From: a virus
Length of the DNA: 24,936 bases
Virus record (IMG/VR): IMGVR_UViG_3300034812_000267
Coordinates: 1-24,936 of that record
Reading direction: 5' to 3' (one strand)
This document shows, piece after piece, positions 1 through 19,804 of the stretch. Position 1 is the stretch's first letter. Each line of letters starts with the position of its first letter. The position numbers and the translations under genes are program-made. The notes below the pieces were generated by a model that saw only the letters and a program-made list of their open reading frames with translations, made no database searches and was not told where the DNA came from.

Positions 1-377
1 CCTCTGTTGTTTAAACAATGAAGAACCTTGTCAAGAAAAAACATAATCTCTTCATAATAATTTATACGAGTTTGTAGAAGCTGTAATTCAGGATCGGAAT
101 CCATATACAGTCCTAGATCTTGTTTTAGTATTTTTAGATCAAAAGGTTTTTCTTGGTACACACTTGGTTCTGCTTTACCTGTGTAATACTCAAACTTATC
201 TCTGAGTAGAGATTTATATTCATATTCTTTTTTTATTTTCAACAACCTTACATCAGACAAGTAGTTTAGATACTTGCTGTGTAGTTGTGGAATTTTGATT
301 GATTCTTCGTCTAATAGATCTTGTTCAATTTTTGAGTCTTCAGCCCATTGGGATTTAATATCGTCAAGTGTGATCAT
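1..377 (-). CDS. uvsY: UvsY-like recombination mediator (partial, runs off left edge)
   Basis: I translated this frame from the minus strand: an ATG at 377-375 opens a frame that stays open to base 1, giving 125 residues. The protein starts MITLDDIKSQWAED and holds the features I associate with T4 and cyanophage UvsY: an acidic N-terminus, a basic helical middle (RLLKIKKEYEYKSLLRDK), a YYTG motif where T4 UvsY has YYSG, and a C-terminal amphipathic stretch (INYYEEIMFFLDKVLH). T4 UvsY has 137 residues, so only a short C-terminal piece is missing. In T4 it loads the recombinase UvsX onto Gp32-coated single-stranded DNA during recombination and recombination-dependent replication. The start overlaps the upstream gene by ATGA and has no clear Shine-Dalgarno, so translational coupling is likely. 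Identification rests on motif memory, not a search. Confidence 0.82.
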   Translation of the reverse strand, partial: MITLDDIKSQWAEDSKIEQDLLDEESIKIPQLHSKYLNYLSDVRLLKIKKEYEYKSLLRDKFEYYTGKAEPSVYQEKPFDLKILKQDLGLYMDSDPELQLLQTRINYYEEIMFFLDKVLHCLNNR

Positions 378-2359
378 AGTGGAGTATCAAATGATGAAAT
401 CCAGTCTTCGGAAGGATTTTCTACAACTACAATAGAAATGTTTCTGGGTTGTAATCTAAGCAATAGTTTGTTGATAGATGCTCTAATTGTACCAGTAGTC
501 ATACTACCAGAGTTATCAACAAAGATTGCAATTTTTCCGCCGTCTGGTACACTATCTAGGCCACAAATTGTGTAGTAGTCTGAAGCATATTGTTCAAGAT
601 TATTGTCTCTAGCAACTGTAATAGGACCAAATGTTTTATTATCTTGTCTCGATCCAACAAAAGATGTATCTGTAACTGTAATAGTGGGAGATGTAATTAC
701 TGTATCTCCAGAAGTGTTTCTAAATTTGAGATTCATTGTTTCAACACCTTCAGTCCTTGCATCCCTAACTATGGTTGCAGTTACTGTTGCCGTGTTGTTG
801 TTTATTATTATAGAAGAAGATGACAAACTAATATCTAAATTATTTCCCGTTGAAGGTAATACACTTAAAACAGTGCCATCCCCAACTCCAGTAGTTGTTA
901 TCGTAAATGTGGTGGATGTAGTAGAACCTAATATAGATTCATCTATATTGAATGGTTGATCGGGCGTTACAGCAATAGTAAATGGTGTGTCTGTAATTGA
1001 AACTGTAGATGTAGTTGCTACAGTAGTACCACCAGTTTTTATGTCAAGATAAAAATTTTCACCAGTATCTACTTTTAAATCTTGTAATGCTTTTATTGTT
1101 ATAGAGGCAGTATTATTATTGATTGTAAAACTACCAGTTGATGGGGAAAGATCAATATTGTTCAAACTTGCTGCATAATTTAATACCGTTCCATTTGGAA
1201 TTCCAGTAGTGTTAATAGTAAAAGTTACTTCATTATTTTCACTAATTGTTGTTGCGGATGTAGTAAAAGTATATGATGTAGTGTTTTGAATAGTTGCTTC
1301 GCTACTAGTTGCAAGAACATTATTAGCATATTTTACATCTACAGTAAATGTTTCATCACTTTCTACAAAAACGTCTTCTGCAGCTGCAACCGTAAATGAT
1401 GCAGTGTTGTTGTTTATGGTTATATTTCCAGATGCTGGAACAACGTCAGATGTATTTGATGATTGAAAAGTTAGAACTGTGCCATCATCCAATCCAGATG
1501 TAGTAACAGTATATGTAATAGAAGATCCTTCAGCAATTGATGTTGCAGATTCTGCAATTGAACAAGTTACAACTTTATCAACTAATTGAATAATATCACT
1601 AGATGCAACTATAGGACCATTATTAGATTCTCTTAATTTTAAACTAAAATAATCGCTCTCGAAATTTGATGTATCAAATTGTGATGTAGTTGTTATAGTT
1701 GCCGAATTGTTTATGACTGCGACAGAACCACCAATACTAACAAAATCATCAGCGTCAATTGATCCTTCTAAAGACCAGTACAGCGGACCATTACCGTTTG
1801 TTCCAAAGTTAGTAGTAGTTATATTAAAGGTAATAGAATCGCCTTCTGTTATAAAATTTTGATGAAATAAATTTTCTACATTTGCGTTGTGTGTTATTGT
1901 GTATGTTGCCGCATCTTCTACAGAAAGTAATAATCCACCAAAAGCTTTTACTGTTACATTTTTAGCTCCAATATTGATAGTCTCATTTAAAGATAAAGTA
2001 TTATAACCGCCATTATTAAGAACTAATCTTGAATCCCCACTAGAACTAGCAAAATATAAAGTAGCATAATTATCAGTATTATCAGTTTTTAATTTTACAT
2101 AATCAGTCTCAGCTCCAGGTAGATATAATAGTTCACCATTTGAAAGTGAACTAATATCTAATTCTTCATCACCCAATTTTCCACCAAATAATCCAACTTT
2201 TACTGTTTGAGTGCCTATAGTTAAAGTATCACTAGTAGTTACAAAAACATTTTGTATGTCAGATAAATTTATTTGTTGTAGTGGACTTGTAAATTTTTTC
2301 CTATGTTCTTTTAAATATAATTTAAAATAATTTTTATTTGTAGAGGTAATTGCTGGCAT
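374..2359 (-). CDS. Virion protein with Calx-beta-like repeats and C-terminal vWA-like domain
   Basis: This 661-residue protein has a start supported by AGGAGA eight bases upstream of the ATG. Residues 1-160 are an unrecognised beta-rich N-terminus. Four related repeats of about 95-105 residues follow (about 165-260, 266-358, 361-456, 458-565). Each has an early acidic SIAEG/ISENN/IDES motif, a DGTVL or NGTVL turn, an xITINNNTAxxT strand and a late E-containing strand (ESDETFTV, EGVETMNL), as in Calx-beta and other Ig-like folds. Residues about 575-661 look like a short von Willebrand A domain: a hydrophobic strand, then DNSGSM at 615-620 (MIDAS-type DxSxS), a helix, a second strand ISIVVVEN and the ending EDWISSFDTPL. 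It has no evident signal peptide or membrane segment. I infer a late virion adhesin or decoration protein. The organ of the virion to which it belongs cannot be told. Confidence 0.72.
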   Translation of the reverse strand: MPAITSTNKNYFKLYLKEHRKKFTSPLQQINLSDIQNVFVTTSDTLTIGTQTVKVGLFGGKLGDEELDISSLSNGELLYLPGAETDYVKLKTDNTDNYATLYFASSSGDSRLVLNNGGYNTLSLNETINIGAKNVTVKAFGGLLLSVEDAATYTITHNANVENLFHQNFITEGDSITFNITTTNFGTNGNGPLYWSLEGSIDADDFVSIGGSVAVINNSATITTTSQFDTSNFESDYFSLKLRESNNGPIVASSDIIQLVDKVVTCSIAESATSIAEGSSITYTVTTSGLDDGTVLTFQSSNTSDVVPASGNITINNNTASFTVAAAEDVFVESDETFTVDVKYANNVLATSSEATIQNTTSYTFTTSATTISENNEVTFTINTTGIPNGTVLNYAASLNNIDLSPSTGSFTINNNTASITIKALQDLKVDTGENFYLDIKTGGTTVATTSTVSITDTPFTIAVTPDQPFNIDESILGSTTSTTFTITTTGVGDGTVLSVLPSTGNNLDISLSSSSIIINNNTATVTATIVRDARTEGVETMNLKFRNTSGDTVITSPTITVTDTSFVGSRQDNKTFGPITVARDNNLEQYASDYYTICGLDSVPDGGKIAIFVDNSGSMTTGTIRASINKLLLRLQPRNISIVVVENPSEDWISSFDTPL

Positions 2360-2374
2360 AGTATTATTCTCCTA

Positions 2375-3811
2375 TTAAAAATATCTACCAGTTATAGCAA
2401 CCAGTGGAATGAGAGCAAACAAATCTACACTTCCGAATGGAGATGAACTTATTGGATAATTAGGACCCCATACATTTTCTGCACCTGGTCCATCAAATGA
2501 TTCAACAGCAACTTTAACTGGCGTCATAGGTCTCTCAGAAAATAATAAATTTGGAACTGTAACTTCAATCTTCCTAGTATTGTCCCACCAGTCTTTTTTG
2601 GATGAATATTGGATACCATCTGCATCTACGTTATAATTTCCGTCATCAAAATCATCCCAACATTGCGCTATAAAACCTTTTTGTCCACTATTAACACCAC
2701 CAACAATTAAACATATACGTCCAGCTATAGGACCCCACATTGCATATGGTCCTAAAAAATTTGTATTATTAGTTATCTGTTGTTGGAAACTAGTAAACGG
2801 AGATGGGTATTTATCATTTGTTCCGACATTCCAAGAGCTTGGACTAGAACCTATTACCATTACTCTTGGTGTATAATATGGAAATCCTAACAATGGCAAT
2901 GGTTGAGCTTGACCCACTGGAACAACATTATTTGCACCATTAAGACATTCAGCTTGTTGACTAATATTAGAACATGATCCACCTGCAGTTGCATCCGCTT
3001 CTAGATATCCTTTAGAAACAGCATCTCTGTATAATTCTGGGTTGTGTTTACATATTTCTGACGCTGGAAATCTTAATTCTATAAATAAATTTCTTGCAAA
3101 AGAAACTTGTCTATCACCTCGTCTCCATTGTGTAAATGGAGCTCCATATTCTGATATAGGTGTTCCATCAGCAAACTCACCAGTATTTGGATTAAATCCC
3201 TGGTCAACCATAATTTGTCTAGCCATAATTGTAGGACCTACTGCAACACCAGCTGCCAAAGCAATAGTACCACTAGCAATAAGATAAAAAAGCTCCGCAA
3301 CAGGATGCATCTGTGCAGTTGGCTTTGAAAGTCCAAAATCACCAAAACCTTCAAAATTATATCTATCGAAATAAATTAATTCATCTCTTTCTTTATCCCA
3401 ACGAATGCCGCCGTGTGGATCAGGAGCAAAATTAAAAAATACATTTCGGACTGATGGATGCCATCTAGTTTTTTTCTCATAAAGATCTAGTAATACAGGA
3501 ATATCTGCGTTAGTTCCTAAAGTTTCTATTACTTCTTGTCTATTTGATTGATCCACTGGCACTACAAATGGATCTTGTGCCGTTAATCCTGGTCCACTAT
3601 ATCCAGCCTTATTAATATCAAGCCATTGTATCAAAGATATTGCCGCAGAAAAAGTAGATCCTGCTTGGTTTGCAGCTGGTTGTAAAAAATTGGGAAGTCC
3701 ACTGAAGTCTGTTTCACTAGTGTAAAAGTCAGCAATTGAACCAGCAAGTCCCTGAACTGCAGGAGACAAATTTGCTCCTGAAAATGTATAAACTGGGGTA
3801 TAATTTGGCAT
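2375..3811 (-). CDS. Unrecognised 478-residue protein, probably virion-associated
   Basis: I do not recognise this family. The start is well supported: GAGGT lies just upstream of the ATG, overlapping the stop of the previous gene, with only two bases between stop and start. The N-terminus is rich in Ala, Ser and Gly. Residues about 111-160 are aromatic and charged (TRWHPSVRNVFFNF, IYFDRYNFEGFGDF). Residues about 171-197 form a long hydrophobic, small-residue stretch that could be a membrane-active or buried helix. Two cysteines near 280 and 289 flank an SNISQQAE segment. The C-terminal half is rich in Pro, Gly and Trp. It sits between two genes with adhesin-like domains and shares their late promoter, so a virion role is inferred from context only. 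Confidence 0.6.
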   Translation of the reverse strand: MPNYTPVYTFSGANLSPAVQGLAGSIADFYTSETDFSGLPNFLQPAANQAGSTFSAAISLIQWLDINKAGYSGPGLTAQDPFVVPVDQSNRQEVIETLGTNADIPVLLDLYEKKTRWHPSVRNVFFNFAPDPHGGIRWDKERDELIYFDRYNFEGFGDFGLSKPTAQMHPVAELFYLIASGTIALAAGVAVGPTIMARQIMVDQGFNPNTGEFADGTPISEYGAPFTQWRRGDRQVSFARNLFIELRFPASEICKHNPELYRDAVSKGYLEADATAGGSCSNISQQAECLNGANNVVPVGQAQPLPLLGFPYYTPRVMVIGSSPSSWNVGTNDKYPSPFTSFQQQITNNTNFLGPYAMWGPIAGRICLIVGGVNSGQKGFIAQCWDDFDDGNYNVDADGIQYSSKKDWWDNTRKIEVTVPNLLFSERPMTPVKVAVESFDGPGAENVWGPNYPISSSPFGSVDLFALIPLVAITGRYF

Positions 3812-3813
3812 AA

Positions 3814-4830
3814 TTACCTCGATCCGTTATACGTTGATGGGTCTGTTGTTTCTAGGAAATCTATTGGAACATTGAGTTGATTGCCCCAACCACCTCCTAC
3901 AGGTTGCAATAGATAAAATTTTCTATTAGGCCAATTTGTTCTAAACTGTGCCCATTTAGATTCCATAGCCGCAAGACTATTGTTATCATTTTCGTCAATG
4001 ATAGCTATGCAAGTTATGTTTGCACTTAAGACAGGATTAGCAACATTTACTACAGTAGATGCAGTTGCTTTTCCACCTTTACCAAATGCTGTTGCTGTGT
4101 ACGTTATGTATCCATTATTAGCACTACTTTCAACAGTAGTTCTTGCAATCGTATCAGTTCCAGAAGTTGCAACCTCACCAACTCCCTGATCTATAGTTAC
4201 ATAATCAGCATTTTCTGATGTCCATGTTAAAGATAAAGTTGTACTATCTAAAACATGAGAGAGTGATATTGTTGGTTTCTCTCTAGGTTCGGTAAAAAAA
4301 CCAGTCGCTCCTACCTCCTCGATATCGAATATAGTGAACTTAAAGGTAGCATCAACAGCAAAATATTCTGTATCTGTATATGTAGAATCAAAATTTAAAC
4401 CAGATAAAGATACTGGAAAAAGATCTTTAAAGTAAATTCTAAATTTTCTATTAAAATTAGAATCTAGAACAAATAATACTCCGTCACTATATTGTTTTTC
4501 TTGATAAGACTCTCCATCAGCATAAGTACTCCAGTCATCTGCTGATTCTGGATGACCTAGATATCTAATCCAATTATGAATAGATCGATAATTTTTTAAA
4601 TCTTCGTCTACCAGGAATCTAATTGTCAGGTCATCGTAATTTACTTCATCACCTGGTTCTGGTATTGTATTGAATCTAGTTGCTTGAGTTGCTACAGCTA
4701 AATTCTGTGAGGGTACATTAGCAGATTGACAGTAAAAAGATACACCTGGCAATTTTTTTAGACTAAACTGAAATCCAGCTCCCGACAGGAAGTTAGACGG
4801 ACAGTTTGGATTGTCAGCAAAATATGCCAT
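3814..4830 (-). CDS. Tail-tube-like virion protein with Ig-like domain and truncated vWA-like tail
   Basis: This 338-residue protein is in three parts. Residues 1-172 have the pattern of T4 gp19-type tube proteins: F-S-L strand, CQSANVP, GDEVNYDDLTIRFLVDEDL, HNWI, a YSDGVLFVLDSNF strand, FKDLFPVSLSGLNFD, and a final FKFTIFDI strand. Residues about 185-264 form an Ig- or PKD-like domain (PTISL, LTWTSENADYVTI, YTATAFGKGGKATASTVVNV). Residues about 268-338 begin a vWA-like strand and helix (CIAIIDEND, then FYLLQP) but stop without a MIDAS motif. It is the first gene after the gp23 terminator and lies 14 bases from a perfect TATAAATA. A T4 gp3-type tail completion role is possible by position, but length and architecture fit a tube-like structural protein better. 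Confidence 0.68.
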   Translation of the reverse strand: MAYFADNPNCPSNFLSGAGFQFSLKKLPGVSFYCQSANVPSQNLAVATQATRFNTIPEPGDEVNYDDLTIRFLVDEDLKNYRSIHNWIRYLGHPESADDWSTYADGESYQEKQYSDGVLFVLDSNFNRKFRIYFKDLFPVSLSGLNFDSTYTDTEYFAVDATFKFTIFDIEEVGATGFFTEPREKPTISLSHVLDSTTLSLTWTSENADYVTIDQGVGEVATSGTDTIARTTVESSANNGYITYTATAFGKGGKATASTVVNVANPVLSANITCIAIIDENDNNSLAAMESKWAQFRTNWPNRKFYLLQPVGGGWGNQLNVPIDFLETTDPSTYNGSR

Positions 4831-4843
4831 AACGTTTTGGAAC

Positions 4844-4851
4844 TATTTATA
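4844..4851 (-). promoter_or_regulatory. Late promoter core TATAAATA of the post-gp23 cassette
   Basis: It matches the T4 late promoter core (TATAAATA) exactly on the minus strand, 14 bases before the ATG of the tail-tube-like gene. It starts on the last base of the preceding terminator U-tract. A T4-type late sigma factor would read it. Confidence 0.75.
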
Positions 4852-4878
4852 AAAAAAGAGGGCCCCTTTGGGACCCTC
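4851..4878 (-). terminator. Rho-independent terminator after gp23
   Basis: On the minus strand a nine-base-pair stem (arms 4870-4878 and 4858-4866, one G-U pair) with an AAA loop is followed by seven T residues (4857-4851). It lies 21 bases after the gp23 stop codon. It is the only strong terminator I find in the window and separates the capsid gene from the cassette downstream. Confidence 0.9.
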
Positions 4879-4899
4879 CAGAAATATGTGAAAAATGGA

Positions 4900-6273
4900 T
4901 CACATAAGGTTGAGAACGCGAGTACGTCTGTAGTAGTTGTTCGCGTTTGCAACGAGAGCGTTGCTGGACTGAGTAGTTCCACGGGAGAATGGGTTCGCGA
5001 CCATGCCGTAGCGAGTCTTGAAGCCAATCTTTGGTTGGAAGGTGTCCTGACCGATGGAGCGGACCATCTGGAGAGGAACGTATGGGCAGTAGAAGAGACC
5101 TGCATCATATGCAGAAGTACCCTTATAACCCATGACATAGAAGTGGTCATCTGCAATGTTAGCAGAATATGGGTCAACATAGACCTTGATACGACCGTTA
5201 AGAGTACCAACTAGAGTGGACTCGGTGTCGTCAACGCCGGTTAGACCGTTGTTACCACCAAGAGCAGGAGCGTAGTCAAGAACGCCTGCCATACCTAGAG
5301 CACTTGCAACGTCTGCAGAACAGACGATGAAGTTGCCCTTCCCGCGACGAGTCTCTTGACCGATCGCGTTAGCATCTCTTTCAATCTGGTAGATAAGTCC
5401 TTTGAACTTCTCTGCCATCCAGCGACCGTTGGAGTCAACGTCAAGGTCGAATGAACCTGCGTTAGCAACGTTGTTCTGAGCACCAGGCTTAGCAGTTACG
5501 TAGATGGTACGAACGACTTCGCGGTTGATTTCAGCAAGAACTTCAGCAGAAAGAATGTTAGCAAGTTCTGCTTCAGCGTCAAGACCATGGATCGCCTTGA
5601 GGTCTTGAGCGAGTTCTAGTGAGTACTCAGCTTTTAGAGCGCGACCTTTTGCTTCAACAGCAACTTTCTCGATCGAGAATGACATCTCGCGGAAAGCGGT
5701 TCCAGCAGAAGATCCAAGTGCTTCCTGAGTAGCGGTGTTCATGCCGCCGACAGCAGCATAATCACCAGGTGATGATGCGTTAAGAACTGCAGGGTTGGTT
5801 GCGTTCTCACCAGTTGCAGCAGAATATGCACCGTCGTCTGCAGAGAATCCAGAAGGAGTCTCGTTGTAGAATGCTTCGTTGGTGAATACGTTTGGAGTTG
5901 CACCGTTACCATCGCGGTCAGTGCCACGGTGGGAGCGCATTGCGAAGATGAGTCCAGTAGGACCAGACATTGGTTGGACACCGCAGATGTCATATGCCAT
6001 CAACTTAGGCATAGAACGGCGGATGAGGCTGATTAGAACAGGGTCGAAACCAGCAACTGGTGGGTTAGCGCCTGAACCTGAGAAACCACCAGTACCAGCA
6101 GAGTTGGTTGGTGCTGCTTCAGTTACGAGACCACGCTCTTCACGCATGAAGCGCTCTTGGTTCTCTAGAAGTACAGCGGTGACTGCACGTCTGTGATTAT
6201 CTTTAATGTTATCAAGACCAGAGTGCTCGAGTACGGGAGCCCACTTCTCTTGAAGGGATTCTGAATTATACAT
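4900..6273 (-). CDS. 23: Major capsid protein gp23
   Basis: This 457-residue protein carries the hallmark block of the T4 gp23 family at about residues 77-108 (FDPVLISLIRRSMPKLMAYD, then ICGVQPMSGPTGLIF), with further family strands through to the C-terminal NPFSRG and NYYRRTRVLNLM. It is shorter than T4 gp23 (521 residues), as expected for marine relatives. The N-terminal 50 residues are charged and helical, like the part removed by the prohead protease; a candidate cleavage is after Glu52 (GLVTE/AAPT). It builds the hexamers of the head. The ATG has AAGGAG upstream, and a late promoter core lies at 6317-6324. Base composition is clearly richer in G+C than that of the adhesin genes to its left. 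A strong terminator follows the stop codon. No gp24 vertex gene is seen beside it. Confidence 0.97.
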   Translation of the reverse strand: MYNSESLQEKWAPVLEHSGLDNIKDNHRRAVTAVLLENQERFMREERGLVTEAAPTNSAGTGGFSGSGANPPVAGFDPVLISLIRRSMPKLMAYDICGVQPMSGPTGLIFAMRSHRGTDRDGNGATPNVFTNEAFYNETPSGFSADDGAYSAATGENATNPAVLNASSPGDYAAVGGMNTATQEALGSSAGTAFREMSFSIEKVAVEAKGRALKAEYSLELAQDLKAIHGLDAEAELANILSAEVLAEINREVVRTIYVTAKPGAQNNVANAGSFDLDVDSNGRWMAEKFKGLIYQIERDANAIGQETRRGKGNFIVCSADVASALGMAGVLDYAPALGGNNGLTGVDDTESTLVGTLNGRIKVYVDPYSANIADDHFYVMGYKGTSAYDAGLFYCPYVPLQMVRSIGQDTFQPKIGFKTRYGMVANPFSRGTTQSSNALVANANNYYRRTRVLNLM

Positions 6274-10001: not shown

Positions 10002-10009
10002 TATTTATC
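10002..10009 (-). promoter_or_regulatory. Late promoter core (GATAAATA) of gp20
   Basis: Seven of eight bases match the T4 late core. It overlaps the TGA stop of gp19 in the same TGATAAATAAT arrangement as at the gp20 stop, and lies 26 bases before the portal ATG. Confidence 0.62.
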
Positions 10010-10649
10010 AAACCCCAGTATCGAGGCTTGCCTTAGAGACTTCATAGTAGTTATACTGGAATTCTACGGTGAATTCTTCAATCTGATCATTCGACTCATA
10101 AGAGAGATCGATTGCAGATAGTGAAGAAGGCCATGCATCGTAGAACTTATATGCACGGATAACTTCCATACCATCGCGACCCTGAGCAGTCATTGACTGT
10201 GGGGTCTTGTTTGGTTTCTGTTGATCTCTACCTAGTTGGAAGACCTCAAGGTCTACACAGTAACCAGGATTGTCATCACCAAAACCAAGTTGCGATACGT
10301 TTTCAGTTAGTGCATTGATACCTCTTGACCAGGTTTCAAACGCTTTACGGATACCGAACTGACCGTCATTGACAACAGTTACGGACCATGGTTCAAAGGT
10401 TCTGTCTCCAGCAACCTTGAGCATTCTACCTCTGAAAGGAACATCGATTGTTCCGATCGTTGATGCGGGTAGTTGAGCAGTCTTCACAAGGAATTCTGCT
10501 CTTTCTGTAATAACGTTTGATGAATCTACTGATTCAATATCAGCGATTGTATTGAGCGTTGTTGGGAAGTTGAGGCGGACCAAGAACAGATTAGGCCTTG
10601 CGCCACCATTGATGAGTTTAGTCTTAAACTCTGAAATACCTCTTGCCAT
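10008..10649 (-). CDS. 19: Tail tube protein gp19
   Basis: This 213-residue protein has the gp19 signature AGDRTFEPWSVTVVNDGQFG at about 95-114, preceded by FRGRMLKV, and the C-terminal pair YKFYDAWPSSLSAIDLSYES and EEFTVEFQYNYYEV. T4 gp19 is 163 residues; the extra length lies in an N-terminal loop (about 35-55) and a middle loop (about 125-165). Stacked hexamers form the inner tube of the contractile tail. The start has AGGAGA at good spacing. No clear late promoter precedes it in the 41 bases after gp18, so it is probably transcribed with the sheath gene. Its TGA stop abuts the late promoter of gene 20. Confidence 0.95.
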   Translation of the reverse strand: MARGISEFKTKLINGGARPNLFLVRLNFPTTLNTIADIESVDSSNVITERAEFLVKTAQLPASTIGTIDVPFRGRMLKVAGDRTFEPWSVTVVNDGQFGIRKAFETWSRGINALTENVSQLGFGDDNPGYCVDLEVFQLGRDQQKPNKTPQSMTAQGRDGMEVIRAYKFYDAWPSSLSAIDLSYESNDQIEEFTVEFQYNYYEVSKASLDTGV

Positions 10650-13036: not shown

Positions 13037-13261
13037 CTACCAGTCTGGGTAGTTCCAGTTTCCTATATCTACTTTTCTATTTTTGATTATTCTCTTCTTT
13101 GTACACTCCTTACATTCATATGAATATGATGATGGTATATCGCCTCTATCTTTTCGTATCAAATAAAACCCATCCATAAGGTCTTTCACCTCTCCACAGG
13201 TTCTACATTTTCTTTGTTGAAATAATAAATGTTCTAGAGAAATCTCCTCATCTAAATCCAT
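13037..13261 (-). CDS. Small CxxC zinc-finger protein
   Basis: This 74-residue protein starts at the ATG that overlaps the gp17 stop (TGATG), with GGGAG eight bases before it. A GTG one codon further upstream is possible but less likely. It has two CxxC pairs, Cys19/Cys22 in CRTCGEVK and Cys50/Cys53 in CKEC, separated by 27 residues including GFYLIRKDRGDIPSSYSYE, then a basic stretch and the ending NWNYPDW. The spacing suggests a single four-Cys zinc ribbon like those at the N-terminus of some phage HNH proteins, but no HNH residues follow. I recall similar small proteins in marine T4-like phages. Function is unknown. It is coupled to gp17, between terminase and sheath. Confidence 0.75.
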   Translation of the reverse strand: MDLDEEISLEHLLFQQRKCRTCGEVKDLMDGFYLIRKDRGDIPSSYSYECKECTKKRIIKNRKVDIGNWNYPDW

Positions 13262-14907
13262 CACTTATACTCCCACATGTACGTCATGTCTCCATACTCA
13301 TCTGCTTTATTCCATGTATCACCTTGTTCATCCACAAAACTATCTTCATCAGTTCCATCTAGAATAAACCCAAACGGAGCCATATCTTCCTCAATAGATT
13401 CTCTTTGATCTTCAAAAATTCTTTTTCTAACATCATCTGATGTCAATTCTCTGAAATAATCTTGTACAGACAACCATGCAAATATAACAAGACACATAGC
13501 AAGGTCATCATTACACCCTTCTTCAGCTTCAAATGATTGTTTCTTTTGAATGAATGTTGTCATTTCAGCAATAATATCATAATCACTAATCAGTAATTTA
13601 TCATCTTCAATTAATGCTTTGAGGTTTGAACATCCAGTCTTTTTGACAGTAGATGTCATTTTAATACCTAACTGTGACTTATGAGAGAATCCCTGACCTA
13701 CAATCTGTCCAGCACGTCCTCTCATTGCACACATAAGAAGATTGTCATACTCCAAATCAAACTGCATAATATCTGCAACTTGTCCACCAATATCATTTAC
13801 TTCACACAAAACAAATGCATGATTATAACTCATTGCCACTGGGTGTATGATATTAGGAAATAACAATGGTTTAATATTATTGTTTTTATATTTTGCAACT
13901 ACTTTATATGGAATAGTTGTGATATCTACTACAACAAATGCTGAGTAGTCATTACTGACACCTCTAGACACGTCTACTGTCATTACATATTCATGATCTG
14001 GAATGGGTAACTCATATACATCTAAACCATTTTTCCTCTCTATTGGTTCTTCATAAACCATAGTCCTGAGTTTAGACGCAGCGATAAGAGTATCAACAGA
14101 TCCTAAGAACTCGCATTCAAATTCCTGAGTAAACTGACGTTGTGATGTATTCTTAATCGTCTGCTCTTTCCAGTCGGCGTCTCTACCAGGTACTTGAGAC
14201 CAATGTACTTCTGTAGTCGTATATTCGTTCTTACCCCTCTCAGCATCATGCCAGAGTTTGTAGAACATGTTCATCCCGTTTGGGGTGGAGATGATAATAA
14301 CTTTGGTAGACTTACCAGATGAAATAGTAGGATATACAGACGAGAAAAACTGTTCTGCAATATGATTTGGAACGAACGCAAATTCGTCCAAGAAAATAAT
14401 ATTGAATGACATACCTCGGACGGCAGAACTAGAGGTTGATGCTGCAAGGATCTTAGATCCATTCTCTAGTTCTACGTTACCTTTGTTCCATGCAAGAATA
14501 CCATGTTGCATCCATCGTGGTAAATTCTCATATGCTAACTGAAGACGAGATAATAGTTCTCTAGATGTAGATGCTTTGTTAGCAAGAATACCAATATTTA
14601 CATTGTCGTTAAATATGATATAATGAAGCAAGTAAGAAACAACAGTAGTAGACTTACCAGTTTGTCGGGGTAGTTTCGCAATGTTAAACCTATTTTCATG
14701 AAAACAACGTACCATGTCCTCTTGGAAATCGTACATATTGAAAGGCACTAGACCTTCGTCAAGTGAAACAATTTTGATATAATTTCTAGCAAAATATACA
14801 GGATCTCCTTTGCATTTGATAAACTCCTGAACTTGATCGGGAGTAAATTCAATTGCAGTGTTTGCTTTCTTTAGATTAGGATTACCAAGATATACGCTAT
14901 CAGTCAC
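13261..14907 (-). CDS. 17: Terminase large subunit gp17
   Basis: This 548-residue protein is the packaging motor ATPase and headful nuclease (T4 gp17 is 610). The ATPase domain shows Walker A PRQTGKST at 80-87, Walker B IIFLDEF at 170-176 with Asp174 and catalytic Glu175, and coupling motif STPNG at 207-211. The nuclease domain has the acidic residues in MTVDVSRG (Asp312), LCEVND (Glu369) and CNDDLA (Asp467 or Asp468), as in the RNase H-fold nuclease of T4. It docks on the portal gp20. The Shine-Dalgarno is weak. A degenerate late promoter core (TCTAAATA) at 14930-14937 overlaps the end of the upstream gene. Unlike T4, three small genes separate it from gp16. Confidence 0.97.
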   Translation of the reverse strand: MTDSVYLGNPNLKKANTAIEFTPDQVQEFIKCKGDPVYFARNYIKIVSLDEGLVPFNMYDFQEDMVRCFHENRFNIAKLPRQTGKSTTVVSYLLHYIIFNDNVNIGILANKASTSRELLSRLQLAYENLPRWMQHGILAWNKGNVELENGSKILAASTSSSAVRGMSFNIIFLDEFAFVPNHIAEQFFSSVYPTISSGKSTKVIIISTPNGMNMFYKLWHDAERGKNEYTTTEVHWSQVPGRDADWKEQTIKNTSQRQFTQEFECEFLGSVDTLIAASKLRTMVYEEPIERKNGLDVYELPIPDHEYVMTVDVSRGVSNDYSAFVVVDITTIPYKVVAKYKNNNIKPLLFPNIIHPVAMSYNHAFVLCEVNDIGGQVADIMQFDLEYDNLLMCAMRGRAGQIVGQGFSHKSQLGIKMTSTVKKTGCSNLKALIEDDKLLISDYDIIAEMTTFIQKKQSFEAEEGCNDDLAMCLVIFAWLSVQDYFRELTSDDVRKRIFEDQRESIEEDMAPFGFILDGTDEDSFVDEQGDTWNKADEYGDMTYMWEYK

Positions 14908-16444: not shown

Positions 16445-17500
16445 TCAATAATCAGTCCAGTTTTCATTAAATCCGAAGTTATCATCTGGTTCGACAAACG
16501 CATCATCAAGTGTATTGATGACAGAGAATGATTGAGATCCAGAACCAACAGAAGTGATATCTAGTGCATAACCACGGGTAGCATTATATTTTGTACCAGA
16601 AACTCTGAAGTTATCATTATCTATTTTGATAATATAATACTCTTTCCCATCTACTAATCCACCTGGTGCAGATCCACCCGTTCCAACTCTTAATGTAACA
16701 AAATCATTAGTTACATATCCATGATTTGCTAATGTAAATGTATTACTATTAATATTGACAGAGGTAACTGCAGTTCCATCATTATTATAATCTTCAGTTG
16801 CTTTTGGTGTAGCACTGTATCTTACATATCTAGCACCCTTATCAATTGCTGCACCAATATCAACATTAACGGTTCTGATGACATCTGTTGTAGCAACAGG
16901 ACCGTATAGATAAGTTTTAGCAGTAAATGTAAGTGTGTGAATTAGTGATCTCCTCGTTCTAAAATCACCCTCATAATCATCTTGCATACTTACATTATTT
17001 AAAATAATAGGTACGTCTTTAGTTTCTTTTGTCAACTCTACCAGTTTAATACTAATATTAAACATGGGTTGAAAATAAGGCAAAATCTGTTCTAAAATTT
17101 GAACAGAATCATTATTGTTTTTACTAATAATATTTAATTCAAAATCTAAATTGTATGGTACTGGCGAGTACTGTTTATATACTGCGTCTGTAGTATCAGT
17201 TTTAGGAGAAGTGCAAATTTGTATCGGACCTAATTTTCTAGATGGATCATATGTAATACCTTGCATCTCAAATGCAATTCTAGGTAAAGTAATCTGAGTT
17301 TCTGAACGACCATCTAATTGTGGTTCAGCTTCAATTCTCGCCAAGAATTTTTCTCTTGGTCCATATGAAAGAGGAATCTTTTGAGTCTGGACAACATTAC
17401 CAGCACTATCAGTTCTTCTCAGTTCAATATTATTGAACAGAGTTCCAAATCCTACAATTGTTTTACGTATAATTTCGTGATAAAAATGTGTTCCTAACAT
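16445..17500 (-). CDS. 15: Tail sheath terminator (proximal sheath stabiliser) gp15 with inserted module
   Basis: This 351-residue protein starts MLGTHFYHEIIRKTIVGFGT and continues FNNIELRR, IPLSYGPREKFLAR and LPRIAFEMQGITYDPSRK, which is typical of the T4 gp15 family. The core runs to about residue 240 (DYEGDFRTRRSLIHTLTFTA, then KTYLYGP and a degenerate PKATEDYN). Residues about 243-329 are an inserted beta-rich module (NTFTLANHGYVTNDFVTL, GGLVDGKEYYIIKI, FRVSGTKYNA), after which the family's acidic C-terminus resumes (EPDDNFGFNENWTDY). T4 gp15 is 272 residues, so the insert accounts for the extra length. It caps the tail tube and sheath and joins the tail to the neck. Start and gp14 stop overlap as TAATG. 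Confidence 0.92.
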   Translation of the reverse strand: MLGTHFYHEIIRKTIVGFGTLFNNIELRRTDSAGNVVQTQKIPLSYGPREKFLARIEAEPQLDGRSETQITLPRIAFEMQGITYDPSRKLGPIQICTSPKTDTTDAVYKQYSPVPYNLDFELNIISKNNNDSVQILEQILPYFQPMFNISIKLVELTKETKDVPIILNNVSMQDDYEGDFRTRRSLIHTLTFTAKTYLYGPVATTDVIRTVNVDIGAAIDKGARYVRYSATPKATEDYNNDGTAVTSVNINSNTFTLANHGYVTNDFVTLRVGTGGSAPGGLVDGKEYYIIKIDNDNFRVSGTKYNATRGYALDITSVGSGSQSFSVINTLDDAFVEPDDNFGFNENWTDY

Positions 17501-18825
17501 TAAAAGACTCCTTGATTACCATATTCTCCGAAAGGATTACCCTCGGTCCAGTCTATAATACTGTCTCCTTCAGTTTCAAAGAATAGATTCTCTGCTTCAG
17601 GTTCGTTCTCATTCTCAATCGAACTAAACGTATTTATCGTCCATTCAGCTCCACTAGTTAGTCCAACTAATGTGTCATTATCTGTAAAAGAACCGACAAT
17701 ATCGGTTACTTCTAATTCTTTATTTGTAGTATCAAATCTAACTACTTTAGCAGTTGCCTCATCTGGTGATGCTTGTATAGTTACAGTTGGTTCTGATGTA
17801 TACCCAGAACCAGTTGCAGTAAGATTAACTCCAGATACTTGACCCACAGAATTTATAGTAGCAACTGCAGTAGCTCCAGTTCCTCCCCCACCACTGATAG
17901 TAACTGTTGGTGCGGAAGTATATTTAGCACCATTATCGTGTAATATTATTGACGAAATTTGATCAAAAGTTTTTACAGCTACTGCTTTCGCAGTATTTGA
18001 CTGAGATTTAACTGTTTCACCAGTCTTGAAATTACCTTTAGCAGCAATTAAAGCAGTGACTGAAGCACCACTTCCGCTTCCGATTACACTAACAGGAGGT
18101 GCAGATGTATAACCAAGACCTGGTTCAATAACATTTACTGATGTCACTGCACCACTAGTAAGACTTACTGTAGCAGATGCTCCTGTTCCAGTTCCACCTA
18201 TAGTAACTGTAGTTCCAGATCCATATCCAGTACCACCAGAGGTAACAACAAAGTCTTTGATACCGTCCGTAATTTTAAATGTTGTGGTGTAACCAGTGAT
18301 TCTTGTGAGATTATCAATTTCAGGAACACCAGTCTCTAATCTCTCATTAGAGAATTCCATCAACTCAGCAACTAGACCATAGGTTTGAATTCCATCTAAT
18401 TGTCTGAATGGTTTTTCGTGTTCTACAAATTTAATTTGGAATAATTGATCCGTAAGTGGTAAGTAAATTGCATCACCTTCATTAGGTCTGAAAGATGACA
18501 CTAGATTGTTTGAAGATGAAATCAAATCTTCCCATCTTCTCTTTGAAATTATAAACGTTGCTTCATCAGCAATTCTTACACCAAATTTTGTTAATAAAGC
18601 TCCATCTCCTTCAAATCCTTCGTAATTAGAGATGTACATCTCAATCATATAATTTTCATCAAACTTGGAAAGAACGTCTTCTGTAAATAGGTCATCCTTA
18701 TTTACAATTTCTCTTGGTAGATAATAAACGTCATGACCATAAATCTTCAAAGATTCTATAATTAGATCTTCGTAAAGTCTTTGTTCTGATCTGGTTCCAC
18801 CAGAGAAGTAAACATTTTTTGCCAT
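17500..18825 (-). CDS. 14: Neck protein gp14 with a four-repeat Gly-rich insertion
   Basis: This 441-residue protein begins with the gp14 signature (FSGGTRSEQRLYEDLIIESL, then YGHDVYYLPR and ISKRRWEDLI) and ends with the family's C-terminus (EGDSIIDWTEGNPFGEYGNQ, then GVF). T4 gp14 is 256 residues. The difference is an insertion at about residues 187-362 made of four units of the pattern SGxGYTSxPTVTIxGxGxGAxA, at about 192-221, 230-262, 292-322 and 330-360. gp13 and gp14 form the neck collar that seals the packaged head and connects the tail. AGGA precedes the start, which follows the gp13 TGA stop by one base. The insert is probably displayed on the collar, by inference. Confidence 0.93.
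   Translation of the reverse strand: MAKNVYFSGGTRSEQRLYEDLIIESLKIYGHDVYYLPREIVNKDDLFTEDVLSKFDENYMIEMYISNYEGFEGDGALLTKFGVRIADEATFIISKRRWEDLISSSNNLVSSFRPNEGDAIYLPLTDQLFQIKFVEHEKPFRQLDGIQTYGLVAELMEFSNERLETGVPEIDNLTRITGYTTTFKITDGIKDFVVTSGGTGYGSGTTVTIGGTGTGASATVSLTSGAVTSVNVIEPGLGYTSAPPVSVIGSGSGASVTALIAAKGNFKTGETVKSQSNTAKAVAVKTFDQISSIILHDNGAKYTSAPTVTISGGGGTGATAVATINSVGQVSGVNLTATGSGYTSEPTVTIQASPDEATAKVVRFDTTNKELEVTDIVGSFTDNDTLVGLTSGAEWTINTFSSIENENEPEAENLFFETEGDSIIDWTEGNPFGEYGNQGVF
17740..18267 (-). repeat. Four diverged Gly-rich units inside gp14
   Basis: This is the coding segment of the gp14 insertion (residues about 187-362). Four units share the protein pattern GxGYTSxPTVTIxGxGxGAxA. The DNA copies have diverged, so the repeat is seen mainly at protein level. 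Confidence 0.7.
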
Positions 18826-18826
18826 A

Positions 18827-19804
18827 TCATCCTACAAAATCAAGAGGTGGAAGTTCGTATGTACTCAACATCTTACTCTCTAGTTTTTCTAGTTCAGCAA
18901 GTGCATCATCGTAGAGTTGTCTTCCATTAAATTCAACTCCACCTGGCATTTTAATGCCAGTAAATTTTAGTAAATTTTGACCCCATTGTTTTTTAATCAA
19001 AGAAGTCAAGTATTCTTTTACAAATCTTTCATTATATATCTTAGTAAACGTAGTTGGGTCAAGAGCTCTATAACAATCAATTAATACGAAGTCATTTGCA
19101 GCAACTCTATTCCAATCTACGTCCAAATATAATCTATTCTGCGTTTTGTTATATCTAATTGGTTTTTGACCTTCTAATAAAAACTCCATCGTTGACAAGT
19201 ATTGCATTGTCATTTCTAAATTTAGAATGTCATATGCATAAAAATTATAAAAATCATTTAGGAAAAATTGATATCTAAAACCAAACATGTTATTAACATA
19301 GGTGCTTGCCATCGGCAACACACCTTGAATACCTATAATATGATCAGGTACTGTTAAATATCCCCTACCCTCCTCAAAACTCATTGTTCTGCATTTATCA
19401 GCAGTTCCAGTACCAGCACCAGGTCCGGTTGCAGTGAAAATTACACCTACAGTATTTGCAGATGCGCCAATCGCAGTAAAATCAGTAGTACCTATACTAG
19501 TAATTTTGTAACTAGTTCCATTAGCAAAGGATCCAGCAGTCACTGATGGATTATCACTGGTGTTTTGATCTTTTTTTGTGGTATCACTATTCCTAGACTT
19601 ACCGTTATCAATATCGTCTTGAGTAATTTTGTATTTTAAATATACTCGCTCGACTCCATCATAAACCCTTTCATTGAAAAGTTGAATCGTATCATCAATT
19701 AGATCTTCTACCTGATCGTCATCAACATTTATTTCAATAACTGGTTTACCTAATTTGCGGAGAGAATACTCCTTTAGTTCAGTCCTGCTGCTTGGTTTTG
19801 CCAT
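18827..19804 (-). CDS. 13: Neck protein gp13 with inserted small beta module
   Basis: This 325-residue protein begins with the gp13 signature ELKEYSLRKLGKPVIEINVD at about 9-28 and continues LYDDTI-like QVEDLIDDTIQLFNERVYDG and RVYLKYKITQDDID. After about residue 85 the family sequence is broken by an insertion of some 50 residues (SFANGTSYKITSIGTTDFTA, then a VGVIFTATG segment and GAGTGTA), and resumes at about 140 with MSFEEGRGYLTVPDHIIGIQ. The C-terminal half has NDFYNFYAYDILNLEMTM and VLIDCYRALDP. gp13 forms the neck with gp14 and stabilises the filled head. The start overlaps the previous gene by 26 bases. Confidence 0.93.
   Translation of the reverse strand: MAKPSSRTELKEYSLRKLGKPVIEINVDDDQVEDLIDDTIQLFNERVYDGVERVYLKYKITQDDIDNGKSRNSDTTKKDQNTSDNPSVTAGSFANGTSYKITSIGTTDFTAIGASANTVGVIFTATGPGAGTGTADKCRTMSFEEGRGYLTVPDHIIGIQGVLPMASTYVNNMFGFRYQFFLNDFYNFYAYDILNLEMTMQYLSTMEFLLEGQKPIRYNKTQNRLYLDVDWNRVAANDFVLIDCYRALDPTTFTKIYNERFVKEYLTSLIKKQWGQNLLKFTGIKMPGGVEFNGRQLYDDALAELEKLESKMLSTYELPPLDFVG

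Follow-up and report, generated by a model that had tools for sequence, protein, structure and literature searches.

Three closely packed genes between gp23 and uvsY in an uncultured T4-like phage are an extended version of the core gene gp3 and two further genes lodged in the gp3-uvsY interval, rather than an insertion beside gp3, and the two outer proteins of this set end in what look like complementary halves of one domain. We propose, with a probability of roughly 0.58, that this split domain clasps an appendage made of the second and third proteins (P2 and P3) onto gp3 at the neck, its halves joining in trans. The window, that is, the whole stretch of DNA analysed, is the 24,936-base IMG/VR record of an uncultured virus, whose structural genes are of the T4-like cyanophage type by sequence matches. 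What is new here is the arrangement, with an Ig-like domain and a first half-domain (half1) on gp3, then P2, then P3 ending in the second half-domain (half2); the literature searched contained no paper describing an extended gp3, a docking domain split in two or Calx-beta in structural proteins of phages.

Judged by its sequence, gene 1 (3814-4830, minus strand, 338 aa) encodes gp3, the tail terminator and a core protein, lengthened at its C-terminus. Residues 1-176 (4303..4830), corresponding to the tail terminator domain (tail completion, sheath stabiliser), match phrog_45, the gp3 of T4-like phages, with an E value of 9e-35, and along their whole length they align to gp3 of cultured cyanophages at 37-47% identity (tblastn). 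The gene also sits between gp23 and uvsY, where gp3 is annotated in four reference cyanophage records (S-SZBM1, S-WAM1, ACG-2014d and P-SSM2), and the tail tube gene, gp19, is found separately in the window (10008-10649). While gp3 is bare in the reference cyanophages examined (177-191 aa), that of the window has 162 residues added, which comprise an Ig-like linker domain (residues 177-268, 4027..4302), recognised from sequence and from weak PHROG matches to virion structural proteins, and half1 at the end (profile residues 269-332, 3817..4026, minus strand as are the two preceding domains). Half1 is a beta-alpha-beta unit with the pattern IAIIDEN...W..FR..WP.R.FYLLQP...FLE. The Ig-like domain occurs without half1 on gp3 of two relatives (L033 and L043). 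In four others (L024, 6001-8028; L027, 194-1828; L022, 1454-2968; L054, 2381-4066) gp3 is 505-676 aa long, with extra domains placed after half1, at the split point.

The genes downstream of gp3, on the same minus strand, are P2 (2375-3811, 478 aa, two modules), 2 nt away, and, after another 15 nt, P3 (374-2359, 661 aa), the stop of which overlaps by 4 nt (374-377) the start of uvsY (3..377, minus strand), itself outside the module and truncated by the window end; the tight spacing remarked on in an earlier note, made from the letters alone, is thus confirmed by the coordinates. Upstream, between gp3 and the major capsid gene gp23 (4900..6273, minus strand, also outside the module), the terminator and late core described in that note are indeed present, as an intrinsic-terminator-like hairpin after gp23 (4857..4879, minus strand) and a T4-type late promoter core, TATAAATA (4844..4851, minus strand), 21 nt ahead of the gp3 start. 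Since TATAAATA is frequent by chance (four copies in the window against 2.3 expected from shuffles), only its fixed position at -21 is informative. The same hairpin and the same TATAAATA at -21 precede cassette-free, bare gp3 genes (L038, L041 and L045-L049), so the boundary belongs to gp3 and not to the cassette, and the overlap between P3 and uvsY leaves no boundary on the other side. It is because these elements and the gp23-gp3-uvsY order are common to bare-gp3 phages that the set has to be seen as a gp3 extension plus two inserted genes. The independent adhesin cassette with a terminator-promoter boundary of its own that had been suggested, in which gene 1 counted as a separate accessory adhesin, is ruled out, gene 1 being gp3.

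That the three genes behave as one linked accessory module, with gain and loss affecting all of it at once, is supported by their distribution in relatives, which were gathered from IMG/VR using each protein and the C-terminal domain of P3 as queries, with one profile per module. Complete gp3-uvsY intervals were available for 35 distinct gp3 genes; half1 is present in 23, in some of them followed by additional domains, and missing from 12. Half2 is encoded downstream in all 23 loci of the former kind (intact in 22, behind an in-frame stop in one, L031/L101), and none of the 12 loci of the latter kind has half2, P2 or P3. P2 and the N-terminal domain of P3 (P3N) accompany half1 in 21 of the 23 loci, the other two (L134 and L088) lacking both and keeping half2. 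The extreme is L134, a minimal form in which gp3 with its Ig-like domain and half1 is followed by a 93-aa gene consisting of half2 alone and then by uvsY. Part of the locus set was found via the half2 search, which favours the presence of half2; in the subset retrieved with the gp3 query only, half2 is present in 9/9 loci with half1 and 0/11 without. On the gp3 tree five gains or losses are needed, at least three of them on well-supported branches, and half2 changes along with half1 in every independent pair (sign test p 0.25, three supported pairs being a number at which significance is unreachable). Co-occurrence in relatives had been named beforehand as the check, and its outcome upholds the earlier idea of a co-expressed accessory virion module as regards a linked unit whose parts resemble virion or tail families; among the parts not supported is the treatment of gene 1 as an added protein. 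In the searched collection the gp3-borne cassette was not found in cultured phages. The P3 gene of L031 (6836-8896), the product of which is 68% identical to P3 of L032, has its in-frame stop upstream of half2, and this is either a sequencing error or a broken gene.

Half2, the C-terminal half-domain of P3 (377..640, minus strand, delimited by profile and alignment), has the pattern TFGPI.V.RD...DYYTICGLD..PDGGKIAIFVDNSGSMT...EDWI..F. Both halves are detectable by profile in the window, half1 on gp3 and half2 on P3, thus not in one polypeptide, and yet they look like a single domain that would have been cut at its middle linker, with the cargo genes inserted at the cut. We base this reading on a natural fusion, on a single-domain model and on loci in which the pair is passed on with neither P2 nor P3N. 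The fusion, half1 followed by half2 in one protein, is found in the cultured phages S-PM2 (T4-GC737) and Syn1 as well as in their relatives from IMG/VR. In proteins of this type (also ACG-2014e/i/j, S-RIM32 and S-RIM44; phrog_2155 and phrog_29022) the pair is N-terminal or internal, ahead of Ig-like repeats in a single chain encoded among tail-fibre genes, whereas in the window it is distributed over two proteins, one of which is gp3. GC737 is annotated in its record as a virion structural protein, and its virion assignment rests on that annotation, GC737 not being named in the text of a virion proteome study that pooled S-SM1, S-PM2 and Syn9 data (PMC3037559).

In an alignment of seven fused, 18 half1-only and 21 half2-only sequences, each half maps onto its own part of the fused domain. 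AlphaFold2 predicts for a fused S-PM2-type pair a single compact alpha/beta domain (pLDDT 90.3, pTM 0.87) with strands contributed by both halves. The best PDB match of this model is 3rag (VIA Z 9.2, 135 residues, 3.0 Å), followed by Rossmann-like entries, with no clear Foldseek match, and these comparisons span residues 1-149 of the fused domain, as would be expected if both halves build a single domain; the PDB fold comparison assigns it to no established family. In BFVD the model matches virion proteins of ACG-2014i and ACG-2014j and, partially, a 198-aa protein of P-SSM2. Inheritance of the pair without P2 or P3N is seen in the 93-aa half2 gene of L134 and in adjacent genes for a BppU-like protein with half1 and for half2 in P-SSM2, L112, L126 and L131. 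A search for a cellular origin of half2 returned no relative in the species-genome collection.

P2 consists of modules A (residues 54-272) and B (residues 312-437), both defined by profiles and encoded on the minus strand. The order of the modules is either A-B or B-A, as a comparison of the genes of L026, L055 and L087 with that of the window (2375-3811) shows. As profile comparison of the two types pairs B with B (probability 100, E 9e-45) and A with A (probability 96, E 2e-9) in swapped order, the relationship is, at the level of sequence, a circular permutation. In L022, L103, L114 and L118 the stretch corresponding to P2 is made of three consecutive genes. No Pfam or NCBIfam family covers P2, its sole PHROG match being a weak one to a tail protein (E 8.5e-4), and comparisons with BFVD and PDB yielded nothing useful for its AlphaFold2 model, itself of moderate quality (pLDDT 66). 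P3 starts with P3N (residues 1-145, 1925..2359, minus strand), which co-varies with P2, and continues with four Calx-beta/Ig-like repeats seen in the translation (650..1867, minus strand). The assignment of Calx-beta to this protein finds no backing in Pfam, in which no Calx-beta model reaches P3 or three of its relatives, two of the relatives giving weak Ig_3 or I-set matches. The vWA reading also proposed for the set is weak. Half2 of the window does contain a DxSxS MIDAS motif (DNSGSM), placed after a strand as in vWA domains, which is near-invariant in 13 aligned half2 sequences and absent from P-SSM2, where SGS is lacking. In contrast to vWA domains, half1 and half2 would form a two-part domain of ~145 residues in which the later MIDAS residues were not identified. 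The vWA profile matched no window protein, VWA_2 in Pfam was hit by two of 46 family members (best E 0.0054), short of the cut-off, and no VWA entry stands out among the PDB matches listed for the fused domain.

Co-variation, measured from distance matrices of 47 non-redundant cassettes, points to two interacting pairs, half1 with half2 and P2 with P3N, although co-transfer of DNA could contribute to the signal, even if some 3 kb that include P2 and P3N separate half1 from half2. Half1 and half2 correlate with r 0.59, and the partial correlation given P2 module B (P2B) and P3N is 0.46 (p <= 0.0005), more than that between half2 and P3N (r 0.45, partial 0.20), which belong to the same polypeptide; P2B and P3N reach r 0.79. 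It is this excess of half1-half2 over half2-P3N co-variation, together with the high value for P2B and P3N, that suggests the two partner pairs. The half1-half2 partial correlation is 0.46 after control for gp3 itself (p 3e-4), and within carriers it is 0.37 for gp3 and 0.60 for BppU-like proteins.

This second type of carrier is found at about two dozen distinct loci (e.g. P-SSM2, L057 and L109), where half1 is joined to a BppU-like domain (phrog_3304) and not to gp3. Such loci have further BppU-like genes on their flanks, and half2 is adjacent or comes after P2, usually with P2 and P3N. In cultured P-SSM2 the two halves are split between adjacent genes, as in the window, with PSSM2_216 (phrog_3304, annotated as L-shaped tail fiber protein assembly) carrying half1 and PSSM2_215, a hypothetical protein, carrying half2; the differences are its BppU-like carrier, the lack of P2, a short repeat part and a bare gp3, against gp3 as carrier and the presence of P2 in the window. 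A bare gp3 is also combined with a BppU-type cassette in G003 (98.7 kb). Of 13 larger records, 12 have each half exactly once, and the remaining one (G013, 87 kb), with a bare gp3, has no half2 and no half1. A 93-aa ORF in L074 (1389-1667) retains the C-terminal end of another half1, of the BppU type, beside an intact gp3-borne half1 and looks like a relic of recombination.

How might these parts work together? In T4, gp3 forms the head-proximal end of the tail. We propose that the extended gp3 would keep this place and hold out an Ig-like arm ending in half1, while P3 would be a rod of Calx-beta/Ig-like repeats with, at its C-terminus, the complementary half of the same alpha/beta domain. Half2 would fold onto half1 in trans, forming a non-covalent split-domain clasp that hangs P3 on gp3, and P2 would ride on the N-terminal domain of P3 as outward cargo, possibly with a role in adsorption to hosts, in tethering particles or in binding surfaces. 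Since gp3, P2 and P3 are late genes of a gp3-uvsY operon, the appendage would be built into the neck of the virion. Capsid decoration, which the earlier note had entertained, is not borne out because with gp3 the anchor lies at the upper end of the tail. A broader version, for which the odds seem to us slightly below even, is that of a portable docking system in which one fold is divided between anchor and cargo and held together non-covalently, the anchors being swapped (gp3 at the neck, BppU-like proteins at tail fibres) and the cargo too, at the split point, including permuted and gene-split P2.

The same halves could also be self-standing domains that dock on a third partner or on their own copies, their linkage reflecting a shared late operon and not complementation. 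Each half does have its own beta-alpha-beta core and D-rich loop, and half2 exists as a separate 93-aa gene in L134, but this reading, which we consider unlikely, has to contend with a fused form that is predicted with high confidence to be one domain and with PDB comparisons that cover both halves, as well as with half1 never occurring without half2 in complete gp3-uvsY intervals and co-varying with it more strongly than P3N, which is in the same chain as half2.

Two further explanations appear clearly less probable still. Phage fibre chaperones often lie at the extreme C-terminus, which is where half2 is found in split-type P3 proteins, and half2 might accordingly serve the P3 rod as an intramolecular chaperone or as a tag for assembly, with half1 as a transient assembly platform and neither as a permanent anchor. 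This is hard to reconcile with the N-terminal or internal position of the fused pair in S-PM2-type proteins, annotated as virion structural, and with half1 being built covalently into gp3, which stays in the virion permanently. The strong variation of P2 and of the P3 repeats, and the L074 relic, would in turn suit an ordinary host-interaction module, a variable and exchanged appendage whose shared C-terminal domains are mere recombination sites; such anchors would be expected to be similar in DNA and to lie at gene edges, whereas half1 and half2 are different, diverse and co-varying protein sequences, which makes this reading improbable as well.

If the clasp on gp3 is real, (i) T4-like marine phages would have evolved a snap-fit for accessory proteins that can be moved between the neck and the tail-fibre region, (ii) the families phrog_2155, phrog_29022 and phrog_3304, whose annotation goes no further than virion structural protein, would gain a function, (iii) a natural split-domain pair would become usable as a protein coupling tool and (iv) cyanophage neck appendages could be tested in the cultured clasp carriers P-SSM2 and S-PM2. 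A known likeness would be with the whiskers and collar of T4 formed by fibritin (wac), the proposed module being likewise a neck appendage, with the differences that no fibritin match was seen for the module proteins, that the anchor is gp3 and that the rods are repeat proteins.

In the phage of the window, decoration may extend to the whole neck, which is plausible in view of the domain types of the module and of additions to two other neck proteins. Both gp14 (441 aa, 17500-18825) and gp15 (351 aa, 16445-17500) contain extra stretches, rich in beta structure and in glycine, that match families of baseplate wedge and tail fibre proteins. The alignment of gp13 (18827-19804) to its own family reveals a longer internal stretch. 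Elsewhere in the window, a small endonuclease VII-like ORF (13037-13264, phrog_4723) lies between the gp18 and gp17 genes.
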